From a virus: a stretch of DNA of 21,104 bases. Made by a program: the position numbers and the translations under genes. The stretch covers positions 1 to 21,104 of IMG/VR virus record IMGVR_UViG_3300050821_004671; one strand, written 5' to 3'. Positions within the stretch are counted from its first letter, which is position 1, and the number at the start of each line of letters is the position of its first letter. The notes beneath the pieces are model-generated. The model did not search any database. It was given only the letters and a program-made list of their open reading frames with translations, and was not told the DNA's origin. Below are positions 2,373-20,981 of this stretch, one piece after another.

Positions 2373-3242
2373 GTGACCTTTCTCGCCCCTGTAGCAACGC
2401 CCGGCACGTATGAGTTTCAGGTCGCAGACCTTCTGCACGACCCGCTCCTCAACAAGTGGACCGAGGCGCAGATCGACGGCTACATCAACGAGGCGCGCCG
2501 CCAGCTCGTCATGGACACGGGGTGCCTTAGGTCCCTGCAGCAGTCCTTCATCACGGGCGGCACCGAGCAGTACATCTTCGGCGCAGTTTCGGGCGCCGCA
2601 ATCATTACCGGTGGGAGCGGCTATACCGCGCCCACGGTCGCTTTCAGTGGTGGTGGGGGAAGTGGAGCGGCGGCGACCCTGACGCAGAGCGGCGGTGCGG
2701 TCAACTCCATCGTCTTTACGAACACCGGCTCCGGCTACTCTTCCGCCCCCATCGCCACTGTCTCGGATCCTACCGGCATCGGCGCGTCGATCCAGGTCGG
2801 CGTCATCAACATCAACACCTACGATGTGTTGGGCGTGCAGCCCTTGTGGGGCACGCAACGTTACTCCTTGGACTGGTTCCCTTTTTCGCTCTTCTCGGCG
2901 CGCTACCGGCCCTACACGGCGGCGGCGTTCCAGCGCCAGCCAGCCGCGTGGGCGGTATACGGGGAGCAGAGCCTGTTCATCGGCCCGACGCCGGACCAAA
3001 CCTACGCGCTTGAGTGGGATACGGTGGTACTCCCGACCCCCTTTGCGGTGGGGGATACCACTACTCAGGACCCAATTCCGATCCGCAATCAGGATCCGAT
3101 CAAGTTCTATGCGGCGCATCTCGCGAAATTCAACGCGCAGAACTACGGCGAGGCAGAGACCTTTCAGAACAAGTACCGCCAGCGCCTGCTCGAGGTGTGT
3201 GCGAGCTACACGCGCCGGATAGGCTCGATCTATGCCACCTAG
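2373..3242 (+). CDS. Head-to-tail adaptor protein (P22 gp4 / T7 gp11-like role) with inserted beta module
   Basis: 289 residues from GTG 2373, three bases after the previous stop. The N terminus has the layout expected of podoviral adaptors: a helical start ([20 protein letters not shown], then [20 protein letters not shown]). The C terminus has a long helix ([20 protein letters not shown] followed by [13 protein letters not shown]), also expected. The protein should form the ring that joins the portal to the nozzle. Residues about 71-143 do not fit that layout. They form a Gly/Ser/Thr-rich stretch ([19 protein letters not shown], then [11 protein letters not shown]) inserted between YIFG and the strand [14 protein letters not shown] that would normally follow closely. 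Family assignment rests on the flanking helices and on position before a nozzle-like gene. The gene overlaps the next one by 11 bases. Confidence 0.75.
2583..2801 (+). other. Gly-rich beta module inserted in the adaptor gene
   Basis: Residues about 71-143 of the adaptor. Two half-units read [15 protein letters not shown] and [18 protein letters not shown], joined by a strand pair around GGAVNSIVF. This matches the recurrent 'G-S-G-Y-T/S-x-P-x-V' module in the 446-residue protein upstream. Boundaries are judged by eye from where adaptor-like sequence stops and resumes. Confidence 0.6.
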
Positions 3243-5238
3243 GGGGGCCGGTACCGGCGGGCAGAACCCAGAGTTCGTGCTGCAACAGTTCAAGGGCATG
3301 AACAACGTCGATGCGCGCGAACTCATTGAGGACGATGAGTTCTACTGGTGCGAGAACGCAATCCCGATCGGCTCGGGCACACTCTACCCGGTGCCGAGCG
3401 GTTTTTTGATGGGCGGTTCGATTGCTGAAGTGGGGCCGCCGAAGTACACCATGATGTACACCGATGGCACCGCCAACTACGTCTTTGCGGTGTTCTCTTC
3501 GGGAAACGGGTATATCTGCAAAATCTCAGGCTCCGGCGGCACTTTTACCTCGACCTTGATCCTTGCCGGATTGGTCGCCCCGTCTGCGATTCCCTTCAAC
3601 AGCGGCGTGCTCATCATCGATCAGACCGGGTATTGGGATTATAGCGTCACCACCTTGAACACGCTCACCCCGCAGAATGGCACGCTGGCCTTTGCGACCC
3701 TCACGGGCACCTCCTCCTTGGTGCCGATTGGCGCCTCCTTGCGTCAGAACTTCGCACCCGCCACGGGCTCGGGCGGCACCTATCGCAACAACTACCAAGT
3801 GGTGAGCCTTGTCTTGAATGCCGCCGGCACCGGTTATGCGGTCGGCGACCAGATCAACTTGGCCGACAACAGTCCCACCACCGCCGCGCAGGTGATCGTA
3901 GCGACGATCGGAGCGGGCGGCGCGGTCGCGACCTTCACGATTGCCACCGGCGGCTCATGGCCGGGCCCTACCAGCATCACGCCGATTGCGGTAGGACCTT
4001 CGGGGACCGTGACGACCACCAGCGGCGGCGGCACGGGGGCGACTTTTACCGGCAATATGCAGGCGTTTTCGACGACGATCGTGACATTAGGCCACGGCTA
4101 TCCACTCTCCACGTCGGGCGTCGACCAGATCTTCCGTGGCGGGGTGTGGGTGCCCATCACGTTCGACACGGTCACCTCGAGCGGGGTCATCAGTGGCTCA
4201 TCGATTGCCAGTTACGCTGGGCGGGTGTGGATTGCGTTCGGCAAAGTGGTGTTCTTCACCGATATCAACAGTTACAACGGATTCGGCGGGGTGGGTGGCT
4301 CCTTCACCATCAACGATGCGTATCTGATCGGCGCTATCACGGCGCTGTTCTCGGCGAACAATTACCTCTACATCTTCGGTCAAACATCGATCGATGCGCT
4401 CTCAAATGTCACGGTCACCTTGGGTGTTACCGCGTTTTCGCGCATCAATTTGACCGCCTCGGTGGGCACGATCTTCGCGACCTCCATTTTCTCCTATCTG
4501 CGCGCGGTGGTGTTCTATAACCAGGCGGGGATCTGGTCGCTCTCGGGAGCGACACCCGAGAAGATCTCGCAGAAGATTGCGGGCATTATCCAGGGCGCGA
4601 GCATGTTGGGCGGTGCACAGGTCTACGGCGCTCCGGTCATGTTCCGCGGGGAGCTGTGCGCGGCACTGCAGTTGACCTTTATCGATACGATCACGGGCTT
4701 GGGTGCGCGTCCGGTCATTGTGATGTACTTTCGCGGGCGCTGGTGGGTGCACACGATCCCGTTTGTGGCGCCATACTCGTACAGCACGGCGATGGCCTCC
4801 ATTCCGGGGACGATTGGCTCGACCGAATACGGGCTCACCAACCTGTACGTGTGGCGGGGCGGGGCCACTGCGGCGACGCTCTACCTCGCCCTACAGCCGG
4901 CGCCCTTAACGCCGCTCGCGACCTGGATCTTGAAGACCAAACTGTGGGATGGCGGCGCGCCCTTGAAGGAGAAGCAATCCTTGAACGCGGCGATCGCCGG
5001 AGTGTTCTCCGGGACCCTGGGGTCCGGTGTGACGTGCACCATTGATACCGAGCGAGTCTCCTCGGCGCCTTTGAACCTGATCCCCAATGGCGAGCCCACG
5101 GGGTATAACTTGGATGTGATCGCGGCGAATGAGGGCGGCAGCCAGTTTTTGGGGATGACCATCACGGGCGGGGTCGAGATGACGCAGATCGATCTGATTG
5201 CGCTCAAGGGTAAGGCGGACCGGGACATGCTGTCGTGA
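3232..5238 (+). CDS. Tail nozzle-like protein (T7 gp12 / P22 gp10-type role)
   Basis: 668 residues from ATG 3232, with GATAGG at 3218-3223 upstream; the start lies inside the end of the adaptor gene. An early signature, [20 protein letters not shown] followed by [18 protein letters not shown], is typical of large beta-propeller-like proteins encoded directly after podoviral adaptors ('F-K/R-G-x-N ... W-x-x-N-x-x-P-x-G-x-G-x-L-x-x-V-P'). The middle (about residues 290-480) alternates strands with Y, F and G motifs such as [18 protein letters not shown] and [13 protein letters not shown], consistent with propeller blades. The product would form the narrow tail tube onto which tailspikes dock. 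Residues about 190-275 are a Gly/Ala/Thr-rich insert. ATG 3298 is an alternative start, but it would remove the conserved QQFKG segment. The stop overlaps the next GTG (GTGA, 5235-5238). Confidence 0.7.
3799..4056 (+). other. Gly/Ala/Thr-rich beta module inserted in the nozzle gene
   Basis: Residues about 190-275 of the nozzle. The segment begins with a [10 protein letters not shown] motif ([16 protein letters not shown]), continues with a [20 protein letters not shown] strand pair and ends with [13 protein letters not shown]. The layout 'G-T-G-Y-x-V-G-D ... GAGGAV ... G-T-G-A-T-F' is a self-contained beta unit, and the propeller-like sequence resumes at [14 protein letters not shown]. Boundaries are approximate. 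Confidence 0.5.
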
Positions 5239-12141: not shown

Positions 12142-14811
12142 ATGGCCGATATTCCCTTAATTTCAACAACTCCCGGCGCTGGCGAGGACGCCCCGGACGC
12201 TGCGAACTTTTCCCTGAACCCTGCGATCGTAGCTGTCAACCTCTTGAACGACACGACGATCCCCGCGCTGCAGGCGAACGCCGTTTCGGCAGCGGCGGCC
12301 ATCGTCGCGTTGCAAAACGAAGTCGGGGTAGGCCAAAAGATATCGCAGATGACCGCAGGCGGTGCCCTGCAAAACGGCGACCTACTCCCAATCGAGCGAG
12401 GAGGTAACAACTTTAGCATCCTCGGCAGTTCCGTCCTTAGCGGCGGCGGCGCGCAACAGGTAATCCTCAGCCGATCGGCTGGCATCGACCCCACGGGAGC
12501 AAGCGACAGTTGGGCGGGCTTCGTCGCGGCCTACGGGGCGGCACTCGCGGCTGGCCTGCCACTGGTGATCGATTGCAAGTGCCTTTTGACAATCGGCATC
12601 AATGATGCGAGGTGTATCTTCGTGCGCTCTGGTACGTACCTGTTGGGTACCCCGGGTGGGGAGTTGATAGCCGATAACTCGTATATCCCTTTCTTTGTGC
12701 TGCACCACACTACCGACTTCGTAATCCGTAATTTGAATATACGCTATATCGGCGGCGCCCCGTGGGACGACACTATCGGGCCATATCCAGCCTTACTGTC
12801 GCACTTCAACGATGTCGTTATGAAGGGGGATATGGCGGCGAACTTCGGCAACACGTTCTCCGGTTCCGGCTCATCGAACTTCACCGGCCACACCAACCCG
12901 CAGGCCATCTTTCGGATCATCGGCGGTGTGACACGCGGGCTCTTCGACAATGTGCATATTTATGTACCGCAAGGTGCGAATGCAGCGAATTTCGTGCCAG
13001 TGGCTTTTTCTTTGGATGCGCAGTGGCTGCCCAATACCCTGGTGCCGAACAACAATCAGGCGGTGAATGCCACGACCGCAATCATCCCTTCCGACCTCGA
13101 TGTGAATAATTGCCGCATCGACGGCGGCTACATGGGGATTGTAGGGCAAGGTGGTATTCGTATCACAAATCTGGTATCGATTCGCTATTCCGACTTGCAG
13201 AAGTCCGATGGCACGGGAGCGGGGGGTAATGCCCTGTATTTTGCACCGCCTCACCTGATATACCTCTCGGACCCAGATCCTTCTTTCGTCAACTGGCAGC
13301 GCAAGATTACCGACACCTACGACTATGGCCAGTATGTAGGCGGGGCGACCCGGCGGGCCTCGACGTCAGGATCCTTGCTGTCCCTCAAGATCGCACCCTG
13401 CTTGAACACAGTGGTAGACGGATACGTAAGCCTACGTCCCGATGGCTTCACTGACATCTTGACTAACAACTTTGGCAACCAGTTCGGTTCGATGAAGAAT
13501 CTCTATTTCACCTACGACACTTCAGTCGTGACCTCGGATGCAGCATCAGTGTGGGGCGTTCGTTTCCCCTCTATTAATCCATACAACTATCTGACCATAG
13601 AAAACATGACTGGCCGCGACGTAGCAGCATCGCCGAAGCAGTTCCCCATCGTCGGCATGACGAATGTCAACAATCAGAACTGCGATTTCAAGGGCGTCAA
13701 GATGTATTTGAACACCTGGCCCACCGGTTCGACCGCAGCCCCCGGCTTCAGCATGTCAGGCAACAACATGACGTTGGATGCAGATTATTATTTCAATTCC
13801 TATGATGCGGATCAAACCTTCACTGGGTCGATGCTCAACCAGGGTTCCGCGCTCATCACGAACTCTGATGTCAATATCAGAGTCCATGGCTATCGACTCT
13901 TTCCGGTCGTGTTCGCGACGCCTCCTTCGGGCACATCGACCCCGCTTCTCGCCAATTGGGGCCACTCGACGGGCCTCTATCTGCTGCAGTTCTCGGACAA
14001 CGAAGTGCGCTATGCGACGCTCACCAATGCCGCAACTACTTGCACCTGGGCGGCGACCGGTGGAGGTGCCTTAGCCGGCACGGCGACCACGGGAGCGTCC
14101 GGCACGGGCACTGTGGCCACCGTGACCTTCTCGGGCTCCGGCGGTGCGGCGGCGATCGGCTCCTCCGTGACTATTTCCGGTGTCACCCCTGCGGGCTACA
14201 ACGGCACCTTCACCGTGACGGCCAGCCAGCCGGGCTCTGTGTCTTTCGCGAATGCCACCACGGGGGCGCAGACGGTTGCAGGGACCATCGGCTGTTTCGT
14301 GAACGCAACGGCACAGAATGTCTTGGGCCCCAATTACGCAGGCTACAAGCAGCGCATGCTTCTCATGCAGGGCGGAAAGGCAGTAGGCAACCGCATTCGA
14401 ATCATGGACGTGACCAATGGGCTGGAGTCGATCTGCGAAAACGGCTGTGTGACAGATAACTGGTCTCAGGTCTGGAGTGGCACTCCTCCCGCCGGACTCA
14501 CATTCGATCTACCGATCTCTATCCCAGCGACTCATAATCCCGATCGTGCGGCGGTTGTCGTCACAACCTCCTTGGGCGTCTCTGGAGGACTCACCAGTTT
14601 CGCCTTGGGGTGGGCGGCTACTTCGGCCGCCCTGCTTAATACCATTGCTCCAGGTGCCGGCGCATCCACGACCGCCCTTGGCGCACCCGTGACGACTAAC
14701 GCAGGCACGCTTCGAACATTGCGCTTGACCGCCACGGGCGGTACCGGCTTTGATGGTACTGGTGCCCTTATCGTCAGCGTGCGCTCGGTAAGTATTACAG
14801 GAGCAGGATAA
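12142..14811 (+). CDS. Tailspike candidate, pectate-lyase-like beta-helix
   Basis: 889 residues from ATG 12142, the largest protein here. The N terminus (1-60) is Ala-rich, perhaps helical, and likely the particle-binding part. It is followed by ISQMTAGGALQNGDLLPIER, a segment shared by many phage tail proteins. At about residues 113-150, GIDPTGASDSWAGFVAAYGA matches the 'G-x-x-x-x-G-x-x-D-x-x-A-F-x-x-A' start of the pectate-lyase-like fold. The next several hundred residues carry short beta turns with Asn and Gly (FVIRNLNIRYIGG; IENMTGRDVA) as in a right-handed beta-helix. Residues about 650-720 form a separate Ig-like module. The C terminus (about 720-889) is another beta domain. The role would be binding and possibly cleaving a surface polysaccharide. 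No catalytic residues can be named. The stop overlaps the next start (TAATG). Confidence 0.7.
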   Translation: MADIPLISTTPGAGEDAPDAANFSLNPAIVAVNLLNDTTIPALQANAVSAAAAIVALQNEVGVGQKISQMTAGGALQNGDLLPIERGGNNFSILGSSVLSGGGAQQVILSRSAGIDPTGASDSWAGFVAAYGAALAAGLPLVIDCKCLLTIGINDARCIFVRSGTYLLGTPGGELIADNSYIPFFVLHHTTDFVIRNLNIRYIGGAPWDDTIGPYPALLSHFNDVVMKGDMAANFGNTFSGSGSSNFTGHTNPQAIFRIIGGVTRGLFDNVHIYVPQGANAANFVPVAFSLDAQWLPNTLVPNNNQAVNATTAIIPSDLDVNNCRIDGGYMGIVGQGGIRITNLVSIRYSDLQKSDGTGAGGNALYFAPPHLIYLSDPDPSFVNWQRKITDTYDYGQYVGGATRRASTSGSLLSLKIAPCLNTVVDGYVSLRPDGFTDILTNNFGNQFGSMKNLYFTYDTSVVTSDAASVWGVRFPSINPYNYLTIENMTGRDVAASPKQFPIVGMTNVNNQNCDFKGVKMYLNTWPTGSTAAPGFSMSGNNMTLDADYYFNSYDADQTFTGSMLNQGSALITNSDVNIRVHGYRLFPVVFATPPSGTSTPLLANWGHSTGLYLLQFSDNEVRYATLTNAATTCTWAATGGGALAGTATTGASGTGTVATVTFSGSGGAAAIGSSVTISGVTPAGYNGTFTVTASQPGSVSFANATTGAQTVAGTIGCFVNATAQNVLGPNYAGYKQRMLLMQGGKAVGNRIRIMDVTNGLESICENGCVTDNWSQVWSGTPPAGLTFDLPISIPATHNPDRAAVVVTTSLGVSGGLTSFALGWAATSAALLNTIAPGAGASTTALGAPVTTNAGTLRTLRLTATGGTGFDGTGALIVSVRSVSITGAG
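14089..14301 (+). other. Ig-like module within the tailspike gene
   Basis: Residues about 650-720 of the tailspike. GTVATVTFSGSGGAAAIGSS is followed by VTISGVTPAGYNGTFTVTAS and ANATTGAQTVAGTI. The pattern 'V-x-I-S-G-V-T-P-x-G-Y-N-G-T-x-x-V-T' is a recurrent Ig-like unit of phage surface proteins. It sits between beta-helix-like and C-terminal sequence and is strikingly uniform (Gly/Thr/Ala/Val) compared with its surroundings. Confidence 0.55.
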
Positions 14812-16646
14812 TGGGATTCATGCTCCTTGAAAGCGGCGGCCCAATCCTCCTGGAATCAGTCCTTGGCTCGATCGCGCTAGACATCAACCCCTTCCCGCCG
14901 ATCGTCATCACGACGACCAGCCCCTTGAATTTTGGTGCGTTGGGGCATCCTTACACCCAAACGATGGCGGCCTCGGGTGGCTCAGGGGCCGGCCGCGTCT
15001 GGTCGATCACGGCAGGGACGCTACCCACCGGGATTTCGTTTTCAAGTGCTGGCATCTTCTCCGGAACCCCGACACAGGCGCCCTACACGGTCACGCTCAC
15101 GCTCAAGGTAACCGACAGTTCATTGCTGACCGCTTCTGGCAATTTCAGCTTGACGATCACCGGCGCGCCGCTCTCGATCACCACGACCTCGGTCCCGCAA
15201 GGCAACGTCGCTAGTCCGTATTCGTACACTATGACCTCTGCTGGCGGCTCAGGGATTGGCGTCAACTGGTCGGTGAGTGCCGGAACGCTCCCCGCCGGTC
15301 TCTCGCTCTCAGCCGCGGGAGTCCTCTCAGGCACGCCGACCACGACTACCGCGGGCACCAGCGTCACCATCCAGGTCAACGATAGCTTGGGCGTTCCGGC
15401 TTCCAAGGCATTCACCTTCGTCATCAACGCAGCGTTGGCTAATCTGGTCGTTTACTCGAACGGTACGTGGGATGAGACCGACTTCCCCTCGGGCGCCCCC
15501 TACGATCTGTCATTTAGTTGCGCCGAAACGCCGGGCTACACCACGAACCCGAAGCCGGGACACACCAAGTCCCTGCAACTCGTCTTTGCGGCCCCCTTCG
15601 GGGGAGGGCTGCAACGCGCATCGAAATGGGACCAGGTCCCTGCGGTTGGCGTTGATATTTCCGCTTACACGCAAGTACAGATGTCCATCCTCACGCCGAC
15701 TTCTACATCACTCTACGCGAGCGACCACTACTCGCGCGCGAGCGGCAACGATATCGGCACGGCAACTGCGGCGACACAGCTCTCGACTTGCTGGAACGGG
15801 ATCACGTTAAATTCGTGGTCGACGTTGACAATTCCCTTCTCATCGCTTGGCCGCTTGTCCTCGTACAACTATTACAAGGGCAATCAGCCTGGATCGAATG
15901 CCGCTCTGACGTGCCAAGTCGATGACATTATTTTCTTGAAGGGCAACACGGGGTGGATCTTCCGCGGGCGTCCCATTGGCTTGGAATCCGGCTGGACCGA
16001 TGCATCGACTGCAGGCGCTAACTACGCGTTCCTGCCGAACCCGACTTTAAACGCCAACTGCTACTCGATCAACAATGCTCCCGATCCCGCGGCGCAGTTC
16101 ACCGGCTCCGTAAGTGCCGGAGGCGTGTTGACCATCACCACGCTCTTGAGCGGTGCCATTCGGATCGGCGATACCCTGTTCTATAACGCAGGAACGAAGG
16201 GAACAATTGGCATCGGTTCAGGCTTGGTGTGGCCAGTTACGGGTTCTCCCGGCGCGCAGCCGTTGACCAATATGGCCACATCGACCGCGCCGGGAATCAT
16301 CCCGGTCGTGAAGATGACGCCAACCGCAACCAACCAAGTCTGGAAGGCCACCCACGCGGGCTTTTCGATCACGCCCTATACGAATTTCACCTTTGGGCTC
16401 ATCAAGCCGAGCGGTGGAACGTTTACGGTTCAGTGTTACGCGCCAGGCGGAGCGGCCATCGGCAGCGCGATAGCCATGTCATCGACCTACACCCAGTTCG
16501 ACTTTGGCACCTCGACCTCCAATTGGACGGTTTACAATGTCCCGTGGACCGCGTTTGGCGCCATTGGTACCTCGATCGGCGGCATCTCGATCCAGTCATC
16601 GCTCAACGCCCTCTGGTATCACTGCGCCGTAGGAGCCTGGTCGTAA
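14811..16646 (+). CDS. Adhesin with two Ig-like (He_PIG) domains and two lectin-like domains
   Basis: 611 residues from ATG 14811, with AGGAG at 14799-14803. A short lead (MGFMLLESGGPILLES) precedes two putative Ig domains. Residues 31-117 carry GTLPTGISFSSAGIFSGTPT, and residues 121-207 carry GTLPAGLSLSAAGVLSGTPT, the hallmark 'LP-x-G-L/I-S ... G-x-x-S-G-T-P' of the He_PIG family. The rest contains two galactose-binding-like domains. Each has a Tyr-Thr strand start (Y286, Y523) and, about 50 residues on, W336 in NSWSTLTIPFSSLG and W572 in SNWTVYNVPWTAFG. Such domains usually bind carbohydrate. There is no enzyme motif. The protein probably contributes to host-surface binding as part of the tail or as a head fibre. 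Function is inferred from domains. Confidence 0.65.
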   Translation: MGFMLLESGGPILLESVLGSIALDINPFPPIVITTTSPLNFGALGHPYTQTMAASGGSGAGRVWSITAGTLPTGISFSSAGIFSGTPTQAPYTVTLTLKVTDSSLLTASGNFSLTITGAPLSITTTSVPQGNVASPYSYTMTSAGGSGIGVNWSVSAGTLPAGLSLSAAGVLSGTPTTTTAGTSVTIQVNDSLGVPASKAFTFVINAALANLVVYSNGTWDETDFPSGAPYDLSFSCAETPGYTTNPKPGHTKSLQLVFAAPFGGGLQRASKWDQVPAVGVDISAYTQVQMSILTPTSTSLYASDHYSRASGNDIGTATAATQLSTCWNGITLNSWSTLTIPFSSLGRLSSYNYYKGNQPGSNAALTCQVDDIIFLKGNTGWIFRGRPIGLESGWTDASTAGANYAFLPNPTLNANCYSINNAPDPAAQFTGSVSAGGVLTITTLLSGAIRIGDTLFYNAGTKGTIGIGSGLVWPVTGSPGAQPLTNMATSTAPGIIPVVKMTPTATNQVWKATHAGFSITPYTNFTFGLIKPSGGTFTVQCYAPGGAAIGSAIAMSSTYTQFDFGTSTSNWTVYNVPWTAFGAIGTSIGGISIQSSLNALWYHCAVGAWS

Positions 16647-16647
16647 C

Positions 16648-17352
16648 ATGTGGTACTTCGACTCGACCGCAATGACCTTCGACAACCCGGCGTACAAGTT
16701 CGACGGCTCCTCCCCATCGGCGCCGCCCGCAATACCCGCTGGCGGGGCCTTTGGCACGAACCTGTGGAGTGCCGACGGCAACTATAACTGGACTGCGGAC
16801 GGCTACACGGGGTGGAGTGCGGACGGTTACGAGCCCACGAATCTAGAGGTGGCGACGGCGGATCTTGCCTCATTTGGCGTCAACGTCGGACCCTTGACCT
16901 ATCAATACGACCCTTTAGTCCCACTTGGCTACGTCATCACGGGCTACGTGCCGTTTCTGAATGTGAACTATGCAGGGCAGTACATCCCGCTCGTCATCTC
17001 CAACGGGCCCGCGCCGGGATCAACTATTCTGACCGTGCCTAATTTGGTGGGGCTGTTCTACTACGATGCGCAATTGGCGATCAACGATGCAGGGCTTTTG
17101 ATCGCTCCGCCGATCTGGGTGCTGACCTCTCCGCCAGCCCCGCCGAGAAGTGATTTCGCATTTGGTATCTCGGGGTTTGGCGTCGGGTCGTTTGGTGTAA
17201 CGCCGCTGCCTCCCCCGGGGGTTTTACCCCAGTACGTTGTTTCGCAGTCGATCCCGGCATTTACGCAACTGACGCAGGCGACGCAAGTGACAATTACCGT
17301 ATCGGGGTTCACAGCTATCAATCAGCCCAACATTCCGACGGCGGTTCCATGA
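16648..17352 (+). CDS. Accessory structural protein with PASTA-like segments and an octapeptide repeat
   Basis: 234 residues from ATG 16648, with AGGAG at 16631-16635. Three parts are visible. First, residues 40-63 are three copies of an eight-residue repeat starting W-S/T-A-D-G. Second, residues about 66-119 resemble a PASTA domain lacking its first strand (FGVNVGPLTYQYDPLVPLGY, then IPLVISNGP). Third, residues 129-220 start with TVPNLVGLFYYDAQLAINDA and AGLL and end with VVSQSIPAF and VTITVSG, which match both ends of a PASTA domain. They are separated by an extra Pro/Gly/Phe-rich loop (about 158-193; FGISGFGVGSFGV). PASTA domains in bacterial proteins bind peptidoglycan fragments. A phage version could bind wall material or simply serve as a spacer. 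The stop overlaps the next ATG (ATGA, 17349-17352). Confidence 0.6.
   Translation: MWYFDSTAMTFDNPAYKFDGSSPSAPPAIPAGGAFGTNLWSADGNYNWTADGYTGWSADGYEPTNLEVATADLASFGVNVGPLTYQYDPLVPLGYVITGYVPFLNVNYAGQYIPLVISNGPAPGSTILTVPNLVGLFYYDAQLAINDAGLLIAPPIWVLTSPPAPPRSDFAFGISGFGVGSFGVTPLPPPGVLPQYVVSQSIPAFTQLTQATQVTITVSGFTAINQPNIPTAVP
16765..16836 (+). repeat. Three tandem 24-base repeats encoding W-S/T-A-D-G octapeptides
   Basis: TGG codons begin at 16765, 16789 and 16813, exactly 24 bases apart. Each unit encodes Trp-Ser/Thr-Ala-Asp-Gly plus three variable residues (NYN, YTG, YEP). At the DNA level the first 15 bases of each unit differ at only a few positions, so the units look like recent tandem copies. 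Confidence 0.9.
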
Positions 17353-18518
17353 CCGGCCAAGTCCCCAACGGCGGCATTACCCCAGGCGAAGTATGGACCA
17401 CTCCGCAGTGGATTACCGCGTGGCAGAGCAAGGCGGATGATGCTAGCGTACTGACTGCGGCTATAGTGCCATTCACGACTCCAGTGATAGTGCCGGTCAT
17501 CCAAGGCGGCGCGGGCAAAGCCGCCTCGATCAGCGCCGTCTTTGGTCAAGGTAACCAGACGCCCGTCGCCGGTTCCCTCATGCAGATCGATAATCTCATC
17601 GAGTCTTCCCCAGACTATCCGCTTGCAAATGAAGGGAGTATCTGGCCGCAGACCACCTATAGCTATGCGGCATTTTCCAAAGAATTCAACGCATTCGCAG
17701 GTGCTGGCGGTTCACCGCTTGCCACTCTCTTTGCGTTTGCCAACAACAATAATTCCGGTGGAGATGTCACTGCGATTATCGGCGATGCGGTTGACCGCAC
17801 GGGCTCATCGACAGTCTTTGGCGGCAATCTCATCGCACGTAATGGCGCGGGGATTTCTGGTTCAAAGCTCGTCGGCCTTGAGATCGATGTGGAGCCAGCC
17901 GCAGGTACTACGCCTAGCAGCAATTCGTGCGGTCTGATCTTCAATATCTACAATGTGGCGGCGGCGGATCCCACTCCCGTGTGCACCGTGGGCGGTGTCG
18001 GCGGTGGCATCTGGGGTAATGGTTTCCTCACCTCTCACATTGCGGGTGCCCACTTCGCGGTGCAGTCGGGAGATCCGGTGCAGGCGCACAGTTTCATCAA
18101 CACGACTAATGCAAGTTCGGGGTTTATCTCTGCCGCGATCGTGCTGGGACAAGGCGCTGCGCAGAGTATCGACTTTGGTGGCTCAGCCTTCGGCACATCA
18201 CCCTACGTGTACGGCGATTCCTCGGGTAACTTGAATTTCAACGCTGGCACCGGCGGCTTGCTCGCGCTGCGCAACACGAGCGGGAGTCTCACGAGCACCT
18301 GGAGCGCCATCACCGGTGTAAAAAATCTGGCTGGCACTTCACCCGCATTGCAGGTCGCCGGTACGCAAGTGGTGGGTGCTCAGCAAACAACCGCGGTCGC
18401 GGCCGCTGCGTTCGTTCAAGTCGATACTACGACGGCAGTTTCAACCGACAGCACGTTCGATGGCTACACGCTCAAGCAGGTCGTCAAGGCTTTACGGCTA
18501 CATGGACTACTCCAATGA
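17349..18518 (+). CDS. Tail fibre-like protein
   Basis: 389 residues from ATG 17349. The N terminus (GEVWTTPQWITAWQSKADDA) has tryptophans spaced as in attachment segments of phage fibre proteins. The body is rich in Gly, Ala, Ser, Thr and Asn with very few Lys residues, consistent with a beta-structured shaft and head. The end, STFDGYTLKQVVKALRLHGL, is a characteristic closing helix ('F-D-G-Y-T-L-x-Q-V-V-K-A-L-R') found on many phage fibre proteins. It is a likely receptor-binding or fibre component. No enzyme signature is seen. The last base pairs overlap the next gene (ATGA, 18515-18518). Confidence 0.65.
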   Translation: MTGQVPNGGITPGEVWTTPQWITAWQSKADDASVLTAAIVPFTTPVIVPVIQGGAGKAASISAVFGQGNQTPVAGSLMQIDNLIESSPDYPLANEGSIWPQTTYSYAAFSKEFNAFAGAGGSPLATLFAFANNNNSGGDVTAIIGDAVDRTGSSTVFGGNLIARNGAGISGSKLVGLEIDVEPAAGTTPSSNSCGLIFNIYNVAAADPTPVCTVGGVGGGIWGNGFLTSHIAGAHFAVQSGDPVQAHSFINTTNASSGFISAAIVLGQGAAQSIDFGGSAFGTSPYVYGDSSGNLNFNAGTGGLLALRNTSGSLTSTWSAITGVKNLAGTSPALQVAGTQVVGAQQTTAVAAAAFVQVDTTTAVSTDSTFDGYTLKQVVKALRLHGLLQ

Positions 18519-18709: not shown

Positions 18710-18765
18710 TGACCTCCCACTACCTCCTCGAAGACGGCTCGGGCGCGTATCCTGACCATCCATGA
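18709..18765 (+). CDS. Possible 18-residue micro-ORF bridging two genes
   Basis: An ATG at 18709 overlaps the previous stop (TGATG) and reads MTSHYLLEDGSGAYPDHP before a TGA at 18763-18765 that overlaps the ATG of the next tailspike (ATGA, 18762). The frame exactly fills the gap and is coupled at both ends, as are the real genes here. LLEDGSG resembles the LLESGGP lead of the He_PIG protein at 14811. It may be a translated linker peptide, or a remnant of a longer gene. There is no strong ribosome site of its own, so translation would depend on coupling. Confidence 0.35.
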   Translation: MTSHYLLEDGSGAYPDHP

Positions 18766-20981
18766 CACAGCAGATCATCAATGTTGGCACACTTCCCGGC
18801 GATGGCACGGGAGACCGTGGTCAAGTTCCGTTCAACAAGGTGAATGCGAATTTTACCCAACTCTTTGCGAGCGTGCCTACATTCCCCATTGTGATTGGCA
18901 ATGGGGGAACAGGAGCGACGACGGCTGCAGCCGCACTAACGGCCCTGGGTGGCACGACATTGGCGGCGGTGAGTCAGGCTTACATAGGGAGCCAACTCTA
19001 TCCGCAGACCGCCACCGAACTCGCAGCGGGCGTGACCCCAACGAGTTATGTCTTCAATCCGGATTTTCTTGATCCACGGCGCTACGGGGCGCAGGGCATC
19101 GGCAGCAGCCACGACGACAGCACCGCCATGACCGCATGGGCCACGGTAGTCAATGCCTCCACCAATCCGACATCGACGTGGCCTAAGAGTCTGACGATCT
19201 ATACCACCAACATTCCGACGATCACGGCCGCGAACTTCACGTTAAATGCCAATGGCGGCACCATTCTCGCCAAGCCGATCACATCGACCACCCCGACCGT
19301 CACGCTCTCGGGAACCAATGCGGCGGTGCGCGCGCTGACCATCAATGGCAACCAAGCGAACTTCGCCGCGGCCTATAGCACCGGACTTCAGATCACCGCG
19401 AACAACCCGACGCTCGAGGACGTGACCATTACGCAGACGAGTGCCTACGGGCTCGTCATCGATTCTATTTCGACGACCAATACCACGGTGACTGGTGGAA
19501 ATCTGGTCAATGTCACGCTCCTCAATTGCGCCTCTACGGGGTACCAGTTCAACAATTGCGCCTATTTCAACATCGTCAACCTCGTGGAGCAAAACAACGG
19601 CTGGGGCTTTCAGCAACCCTTCACGCAGCCGGGGTTTGCGTTCGGCGGCACAGTGCGCTTTCGCTCGCACCACATCACATTCACCTCCTGCCAATCGATG
19701 CAGAACGGGCGCGAGGGGTTTAACACTAACCAGGGCGCCTATGCCATCAAGTACGAGAATTGCCTCTCCTGGATGAATGGCGACGGCGGCTTCACGCTGG
19801 CTGGGGACAACACATCGACGGGACGTTTAGGCGAGGGCGAATTCTGCTGGGACATCGAACTCATCAATTGCGAGGCGTACAACAACTGGGCCGGCGGCTT
19901 GGTGGGTGAGACGACCGTCAAGAACCTGACCGTGCTCGGCGGGCGCTACTACAACAACGGGCGCGGCTGCGGCATGTTGGGCGCCTTGATCCAGAGCATC
20001 CCCTCAGGCATCTTCATGAACACGACGGGCTCGCTGGGCCTCGTCATCAAGACCAAGTGCTACGACGACCGGCAACTATGCGCCATCACAGCGAACTCCT
20101 CTGGCGTCCTGACGGCCACCAACTGGGGCTTAGGGGGCGGTGCGGTGTTCGTCCCAACTGCCGCGAACTACCCGCGCGTGGCGCTCTACAACGCGGCGAT
20201 GGCCTTCCAGGGTTACGGCACGATCACGGCGGAATCCTCTGGCTCCGTGACGATTGTGACCACGGCATTCAATGGGGTGACCATCGCGAGCATTGCATCA
20301 GGGTGGTTCATCTCGCAGCGCGTGCAGCACAACGGCTGCTACATCGGCGCCGGCAATCAGGGCATCGTCGACATTGACGGATTCGGGAACCTGCCGAGCG
20401 TGGGGGTGGACTACGGCTACAAGGTGTTCTCATATTCTCCCAACAATGGGCAGAATATCCGCAACGTCAATTCGGAGCTGGCGGTATCGCCGGAACTGCT
20501 ATCGAACCCCACCTTCGATGCGGGAATCGTCTCGGGCTGGACCTATACCACCCCTTCTGGCGGCTCCGCTGCGGCCTACACGACAGCGGGCGAGAAACTC
20601 TATTCCCCTGGCGGGTTGCAACTGGTGGGTGGTTCCTCAGTGCAAAGCTCGGCATTGGCCACGCTCATCGCGAACGGCAACAACTACTTAGTCGATTGCT
20701 GGTTCGAGGTGTCCTGCATCGTGTGGGCGCAAAACGCCGGAGATGCCGGGATTGTCGCGACCTATACGGGAGGCGCGAATGCGACCACGCTCTATCATCC
20801 GGGCGGGGGTACCAGGCGACTCGTGATCGGCGGGTACCTCATCGGTGCCAACACGCTCACGCTGACCCTGTTCTCCTCGGTCGGCAAAACCGCCTGGTTC
20901 GATGAGGCGAGCATCAAGATCAAGCACGAGCCCACCGACTCGAGAGATTACTTTTATCCCACGCGAAATCTGCCGGTTTAA
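18762..20981 (+). CDS. Tailspike candidate, beta-helix with C-terminal carbohydrate-binding-like domain
   Basis: 739 residues from ATG 18762. The N terminus (INVGTLPGDGTGDRG, then FNKVNANFTQLF) is a common phage tail-fibre lead. GNGGTGATTAAAALTALG, a widespread fibre linker, follows at about residues 46-63. At about residues 81-125, YPQTATELAAGVTPTSYVFN followed by RRYGA and DDSTAMTAW fits the entrance to a pectate-lyase-like domain. Residues about 150-450 show repeated short strands with Asn/Cys/Thr turns (VTLLNCASTGYQFNNCAYFN; YAIKYENCLSWMNGDGGFTL; IELINCEAYNNWAGGL) as in a right-handed beta-helix. The last 150 residues start SNPTFDAGIVSGWTYTT and end DEASIKIKHE, matching a carbohydrate-binding jelly-roll module. 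The likely role is attachment and possibly depolymerase activity. The active site is not assignable. Confidence 0.7.
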   Translation: MTQQIINVGTLPGDGTGDRGQVPFNKVNANFTQLFASVPTFPIVIGNGGTGATTAAAALTALGGTTLAAVSQAYIGSQLYPQTATELAAGVTPTSYVFNPDFLDPRRYGAQGIGSSHDDSTAMTAWATVVNASTNPTSTWPKSLTIYTTNIPTITAANFTLNANGGTILAKPITSTTPTVTLSGTNAAVRALTINGNQANFAAAYSTGLQITANNPTLEDVTITQTSAYGLVIDSISTTNTTVTGGNLVNVTLLNCASTGYQFNNCAYFNIVNLVEQNNGWGFQQPFTQPGFAFGGTVRFRSHHITFTSCQSMQNGREGFNTNQGAYAIKYENCLSWMNGDGGFTLAGDNTSTGRLGEGEFCWDIELINCEAYNNWAGGLVGETTVKNLTVLGGRYYNNGRGCGMLGALIQSIPSGIFMNTTGSLGLVIKTKCYDDRQLCAITANSSGVLTATNWGLGGGAVFVPTAANYPRVALYNAAMAFQGYGTITAESSGSVTIVTTAFNGVTIASIASGWFISQRVQHNGCYIGAGNQGIVDIDGFGNLPSVGVDYGYKVFSYSPNNGQNIRNVNSELAVSPELLSNPTFDAGIVSGWTYTTPSGGSAAAYTTAGEKLYSPGGLQLVGGSSVQSSALATLIANGNNYLVDCWFEVSCIVWAQNAGDAGIVATYTGGANATTLYHPGGGTRRLVIGGYLIGANTLTLTLFSSVGKTAWFDEASIKIKHEPTDSRDYFYPTRNLPV

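Follow-up and report, generated by a model that had tools for sequence, protein, structure and literature searches.

The adaptor gene and its family

The window, a stretch of viral DNA of 21,104 nucleotides, carries a gene for an SU10-type head-tail adaptor. A gene for a nozzle-type protein follows directly downstream (Table 1), and this order fits an adaptor lying between portal and nozzle. The adaptor product matches the Pfam family SU10_adaptor (PF24175) with an E-value of 2.4e-7 and 31.8 bits, above the family cut-off of 27. The match is split into two stretches, the better of which covers residues 152–278. The same family is found in 29 of the 32 aligned relatives (E up to 5; best 4.6e-20).

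Table 1. Coordinates of the adaptor gene, its parts and the neighbouring gene in the window
Feature	Position	Strand	Basis
SU10-type head-tail adaptor gene, 289 aa, GTG start	2373..3242	+	Pfam PF24175; model matching adaptor rings
Adaptor N-terminal part, residues 1–69: two helices and first strands of the fibre-dock-type beta domain	2373..2579	+	DSSP of model; alignment with insert-free adaptors
Inserted gp18-domain-I-like beta-barrel module, residues about 70–148	2580..2816	+	Absent from 53/177 distinct relatives listed; model; VIA-align to gp18 domain I
Repeat unit 1 of module, residues 73–107, motif GGSGYTAP at 80–87	2589..2693	+	Unit profile; motif scan
Repeat unit 2 of module, residues 111–145, motif GSGYSSAP at 119–126	2703..2807	+	Unit profile; motif scan
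Adaptor C-terminal part, residues 149–289: rest of beta domain, helices 3 and 4	2817..3239	+	DSSP of model; Pfam PF24175
Nozzle-type protein, 668 aa, VGD-type module variant at about residues 190–280	3232..5238	+	Module profiles; sub-threshold Pfam Gp18_dom_I at 192–239

The AlphaFold2 model of the whole protein has a mean pLDDT of 85. In VIA-align comparisons, the model matches the solved adaptor rings of GP4 (Z 15.7), A4 (14.8), SU10 (12.3), DEV gp83 (9.7) and T7 (9.3), and the alignments with the GP4, A4 and SU10 rings span 186–198 residues. Both the helix bundle and the beta dock domain of the solved rings are present in the model. SU10 gp11, T7 gp11 and KP32 TTPA share this ring-protein fold, but they have 181–243 residues, whereas the window adaptor has 289. 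Going by family membership, twelve copies of the adaptor would make up the ring. Matching genomes in the phage collection are limited to two from uncultured spring-water phages, and the genome collection yielded no confirmed related locus.

A module inserted into the adaptor core

The central part of the adaptor differs sharply in composition from the remainder. Residues G, S, T, A and N account for 67% of the module and 32% of the remaining adaptor. The module holds a single charged or His residue against 38 elsewhere, no Trp against five, and two Tyr. It consists of two tandem repeats of about 36 residues, recognized with i-Evalues of 2e-12 (73–107) and 1e-14 (111–145) by a repeat-unit profile seeded in part with the window's own two repeats. 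Across 20,000 shuffles of the adaptor protein, two GSGY..P motifs never occurred together. In the model, the module bridges strand 66–68 (YIF) and strand 149–159. A reading made from the sequence alone had proposed a beta module inserted in the middle of the adaptor, at about residues 71–143. The unit is real, with edges slightly wider than proposed, at about residues 70–148 by alignment and model.

Scans of viral contigs and two phage records gave 240 loci, which reduce to 179 distinct adaptors; all but two of these are full length. Among the matches listed, 53 of the 177 distinct full-length adaptors have no insert (length 210–214 aa), the GxGY module is present in 21, and the other 103 have a different module, located one loop earlier; these counts depend on the queries, come from the best 80 hits per scan and do not represent population frequencies. 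The cleanest pair is an insert-bearing adaptor (L016) and the insert-free adaptor of phage MW202825, and because the two are 68% identical outside the insert, we regard the difference as a clean insertion or deletion. In the alignment the insert falls precisely at the junction of the strand '..E.Y.F' with '..NT.D', and both edges are clean. Residues 70–148 are an insertion relative to the adaptor core. Since homologues exist without it, the module stands outside the core fold, and it is dispensable for the adaptor's basic task, which the insert-free relatives manage without it. The sequence-only reading had suggested looking for homologues that lack the segment, and would have been refuted had all of them carried it in the core fold; homologues that lack it are found. 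Its view that the strand turn after YIFG tolerates an insertion also holds.

The different module is found one hairpin turn before the GxGY site, where the same short strand has its other end. In about 100 adaptors besides L002:3642-3905 and L035:2184-2441, it shows conserved Trp and Tyr, YVFSNIFIYQV and APPYP. Against solved structures this module has no significant relative, the chitin-binding region 3wx7 reaching only E 0.97.

In an unrooted tree of the core, the window adaptor groups with seven others in a clade of strong support, and all eight keep the insert; a second insert-bearing clade is nested among insert-free adaptors. On a quick tree the GxGY label needs three changes, two of which are forced by well-supported branches. 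Repeated independent gain of the GxGY insert was considered and dropped, as a single clade is compatible with the AU test (p 0.37). The insert-free state is probably the older one, because the solved adaptors matched by the model are mostly 180–245 residues long. Within the window clade, the module has diverged about as much as the core, and its motifs are intact.

The fold of the module and its probable relationship to gp18 domain I

Through the insert, block means of pLDDT are 90–95 in the whole-protein model, and the module modelled alone reaches 91.5. DSSP assigns six strands to it (72–79, 88–92, 97–106, 109–120, 127–131, 139–144), and in the confident model they form a barrel composed of the two repeats. 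When the module alone was compared by VIA-align, the only matches with Z of at least 5 were domain I of gp18-type tail sheath proteins, in five entries (3foa 6.1, 3j2m 6.0, 3fo8 5.9, 9ev2 5.4, 9f4a 5.0) aligned over 72–74 residues with 18–19% identity; the next row has Z 2.4. The same domain is also found from the whole-protein model. For so small a barrel, Z values around 6 are moderate, and sequence comparison therefore served as a second, independent line of evidence. Run with the module by itself, Foldseek returned noise only and lacked the gp18 match, which accordingly rests on VIA-align and sequence. Ig-like chains appeared in Foldseek only at E 7 or worse and are not among the VIA-align rows.

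Direct sequence searches of the module in PDB, Pfam and NCBIfam gave no significant match. The Pfam profile Gp18_dom_I (PF22639), which matches 6 of 16 proteins scanned, T4 gp18 among them, does not match the adaptor. Because no profile match exceeds the Pfam cut-off, we call the module 'gp18-domain-I-like' and not a PF22639 member. Since the direct profile comparison between the adaptor module and gp18 is weak, the sequence link runs through the variant of the module in the nozzle-type proteins. The adaptor module matches the VGD-type nozzle modules in hhalign with a probability of 93% and E 3.6e-7, and these match gp18 domain I at E 5e-5. A search with the VGD-type profile retrieves T4 gp18 with an E-value of 2.7e-5, better than any of 2000 shuffles, the best of which reaches 1e-3. 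By the structure match and this chain of sequence comparisons, the module is very probably akin to gp18 domain I. The adaptor is a known kind of head-tail adaptor joined to a known kind of phage barrel.

Like the module, domain I of T4 gp18 (PF22639; 3fo8, 3foa) is a six-strand barrel of two related halves with GxxY turns, and is itself inserted into another domain; it lies on the exterior of a tail ring, as the module very probably does. Unlike the module, it has an extra helix and a longer second half and sits on a contractile sheath, whereas the module is part of an adaptor and no sheath gene is seen in the window. In T4, the barrel and helix of domain I are inserted into domain II; domain I protrudes outward, makes no sheath–sheath contacts, and binds the baseplate and the retracted long tail fibres (PMC3004832). 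The gp18 mutations G106S, S175F and A178V inhibit retraction of the long tail fibres (PMC3004832). With the initiator Met counted, these positions are G107, S176 and A179. By alignment, G107 is the first Gly of a GxGY-type turn, S176 and A179 fall in a [ST]GxxA motif, and both motifs are conserved in the module.

The module also occurs beyond adaptors. Its profile finds the same GxGY module in phrog_460 (head closure Hc2, a neck protein), phrog_701, phrog_708 and other PHROG families; in these families the match is confined to the module, and the remaining protein differs from the adaptor. The PHROG matches of the segment are to unlike virion proteins (head closure Hc2, baseplate wedge subunits, large structural proteins), and families of tail fibres and baseplate proteins hold the repeats as well. 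Domain exchange among phage neck proteins is already known (PMC10684548).

We also notice a weak profile match (E 0.027) to residues 443–512 of PDB 28lx chain A, from tailspike Dpo31/Dpo36. This segment has the same G-x-G-Y repeat pattern and is perhaps another solved member of the family. In the window itself, the 446-aa protein encoded at 645-1985, between the major capsid and adaptor genes, shows loosely similar G-x-Y patterns; its match to phrog_460 is weak (E 0.0016), and the unit profile does not detect it.

The module family in the nozzle-type protein

The label 'nozzle-type' is based on position after the adaptor, on size and on homology among the relatives; the profile of these proteins has no solved relative by sequence. 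GxGY units are present in the nozzle-type protein at 142 of 148 loci, in tandem and mostly three to six at a time. In the window clade they take the form GxGYxVGD, which comes nearest to domain I of T4 gp18. The window's own protein scores 13.6 bits against PF22639, below the cut-off of 27. The nozzle proteins paired with insert-free adaptors still hold four to six units.

We reject an origin of the window's insert by copying from the phage's own nozzle gene. Among the 148 nozzles scored against the adaptor insert, that of the phage itself comes 147th (37% identity), whereas nozzles of insert-free relatives match at 56% identity.

The SU10 nozzle and the crAss001 muzzle have beta domains inserted in the propeller, and the nozzle-type protein of the window resembles them as a tail-tip protein with inserted beta domains. 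Their inserted domains are described as Ig-like, whereas that of the window is gp18-domain-I-like and occurs in the adaptor too. One nozzle-type protein (L002:4331-6319, MW202753) is annotated as 'baseplate wedge initiator'. This is likely a misannotation, which probably arises from the shared module matching baseplate families.

Placement of the module on the particle

We strongly infer that the module faces outward, because the beta dock domain faces out in relatives and because twelve modules are too large for the ring channel. In DEV gp83, the segment inserted between H2 and H3 points outward (PMC10925440), and the beta domain of the T7 and SU10 adaptors is the fibre dock (PMC6702177, PMC9509320). 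Twelve modules would occupy about 126,000 cubic angstrom, about twice the channel volume of about 63,000 cubic angstrom, which was calculated from a diameter of 40 angstrom given in the T7 paper and an assumed length of 50 angstrom. A module on the outer surface, as the sequence-only reading had it, is therefore very probable from the DEV, SU10 and T7 analogues and from the volume. That proposal is modified in two respects, as the module can be identified as a gp18-domain-I-like barrel and the site already lies in a beta domain of the outward fibre-dock type.

The adaptor gp83 of the N4-like phage DEV has an outward beta insertion between H2 and H3, termed 'lectin-binding', and in this layout resembles the window adaptor. 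However, the insertion in gp83 is the dock domain itself, while the window adaptor has such a domain and, within it, an additional barrel. For the dock domains of SU10, T7 and KP32, the literature searched describes no barrel of the gp18 kind. More generally, a gp18-domain-I-like barrel inside an adaptor was not found described in the literature searched, which includes only a minor part of the subscription journals.

Possible roles of the module

We slightly favour the idea that the module is a gp18-domain-I-type mobile barrel in the outward fibre-dock domain of a dodecameric adaptor, where it docks fibres or braces the nozzle. In such an arrangement, the mobile six-strand barrel would be plugged into the outward fibre-dock beta domain of an SU10-type adaptor, and up to twelve barrels would project radially around the neck as an outward collar. 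Their partners may be tail fibres or spikes, for which 12142-14811, 17349-18518 and 18762-20981 are candidate genes in the window, or else the nozzle barrels underneath. Docking would be analogous to the way in which gp18 domain I holds the retracted long tail fibres on the T4 sheath. Taken alone, fibre docking as the main role of the module is plausible but somewhat doubtful. The conserved loops lie near the T4 fibre contact but are also structural, which makes the docking argument suggestive only, and the three T4 mutations may exert their effect through a disturbed fold.

The main rival gives fibres no part and takes up the suggestion of the sequence-only reading that the decoration might steady the nozzle. 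The adaptor barrels would pack on those inserted in the nozzle-type hexamer and make the 12-to-6 joint stiffer, or lock it. The module family is present in the adjacent downstream protein at nearly all 148 loci, the adaptor and nozzle module profiles are homologous, gp18 domain I contacts the baseplate as well as fibres in T4 (PMC3004832), and the inserted beta domains of the SU10 nozzle protein touch one another around the tail (PMC9509320). But the nozzles paired with insert-free adaptors keep their four to six units, which argues that a partner in the adaptor is not needed, and we consider a pure brace rather unlikely. A further alternative makes the module a tolerated mobile beta repeat from other virion genes, which has no specific partner and adds at most stability or a bland surface. 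The spread of the module over many unrelated virion families (head closure Hc2, baseplate wedge, tail fibre) fits such a neutral decoration, as does the occurrence of adaptors with the module, with none or with another one. Its retention with intact motifs and core-like divergence across the window clade speaks against neutrality, so we hold this alternative to be unlikely.

The sequence-only reading had also raised binding of host glycans, for which we find no positive support. A ring of barrels might act as a low-affinity, high-copy glycan binder; the beta domain of the KP32 and DEV adaptors is termed lectin-like (PMC5440376, PMC10925440), and the module repeats are shared with tail fibre and baseplate families in PHROG. 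On the other hand, the module lacks Trp, has only two Tyr and one charged residue, and matches no carbohydrate-binding family in Pfam or NCBIfam. Host-binding tips usually vary faster than the core, whereas the module diverges about as the core does. Given this composition and conservation, host adhesion is the less likely role, and we regard it as quite improbable.

A wider reading is more tentative, and we offer it as a possibility that is more doubtful than not. The dock domain may be a plug-in site across this phage group, holding a gp18-domain-I barrel, the Trp-bearing module or nothing. Together with the barrel arrays of the nozzle, it may form an exchangeable collar for fibre docking or bracing that shares a building block with the contractile sheath. 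The comparison connects neck and tail-tip decorations of SU10/T7-type tails with the outward domain of the contractile sheath in T4. A repeat family whose PHROG labels are spread over neck, baseplate and fibre proteins, with a corresponding risk for annotation, thereby gains an identity. Because adaptors with the module have natural counterparts that lack it, the function of the neck decoration is directly testable.

Further downstream, the window encodes three candidate surface proteins: a pectate-lyase-like protein at 12142-14811 (phrog_11548, E 2.9e-48), a protein with putative Ig repeats at 14811-16646 (He_PIG, E 3.5e-19) and a PASTA-like protein at 16648-17352 (E 1.1e-7).
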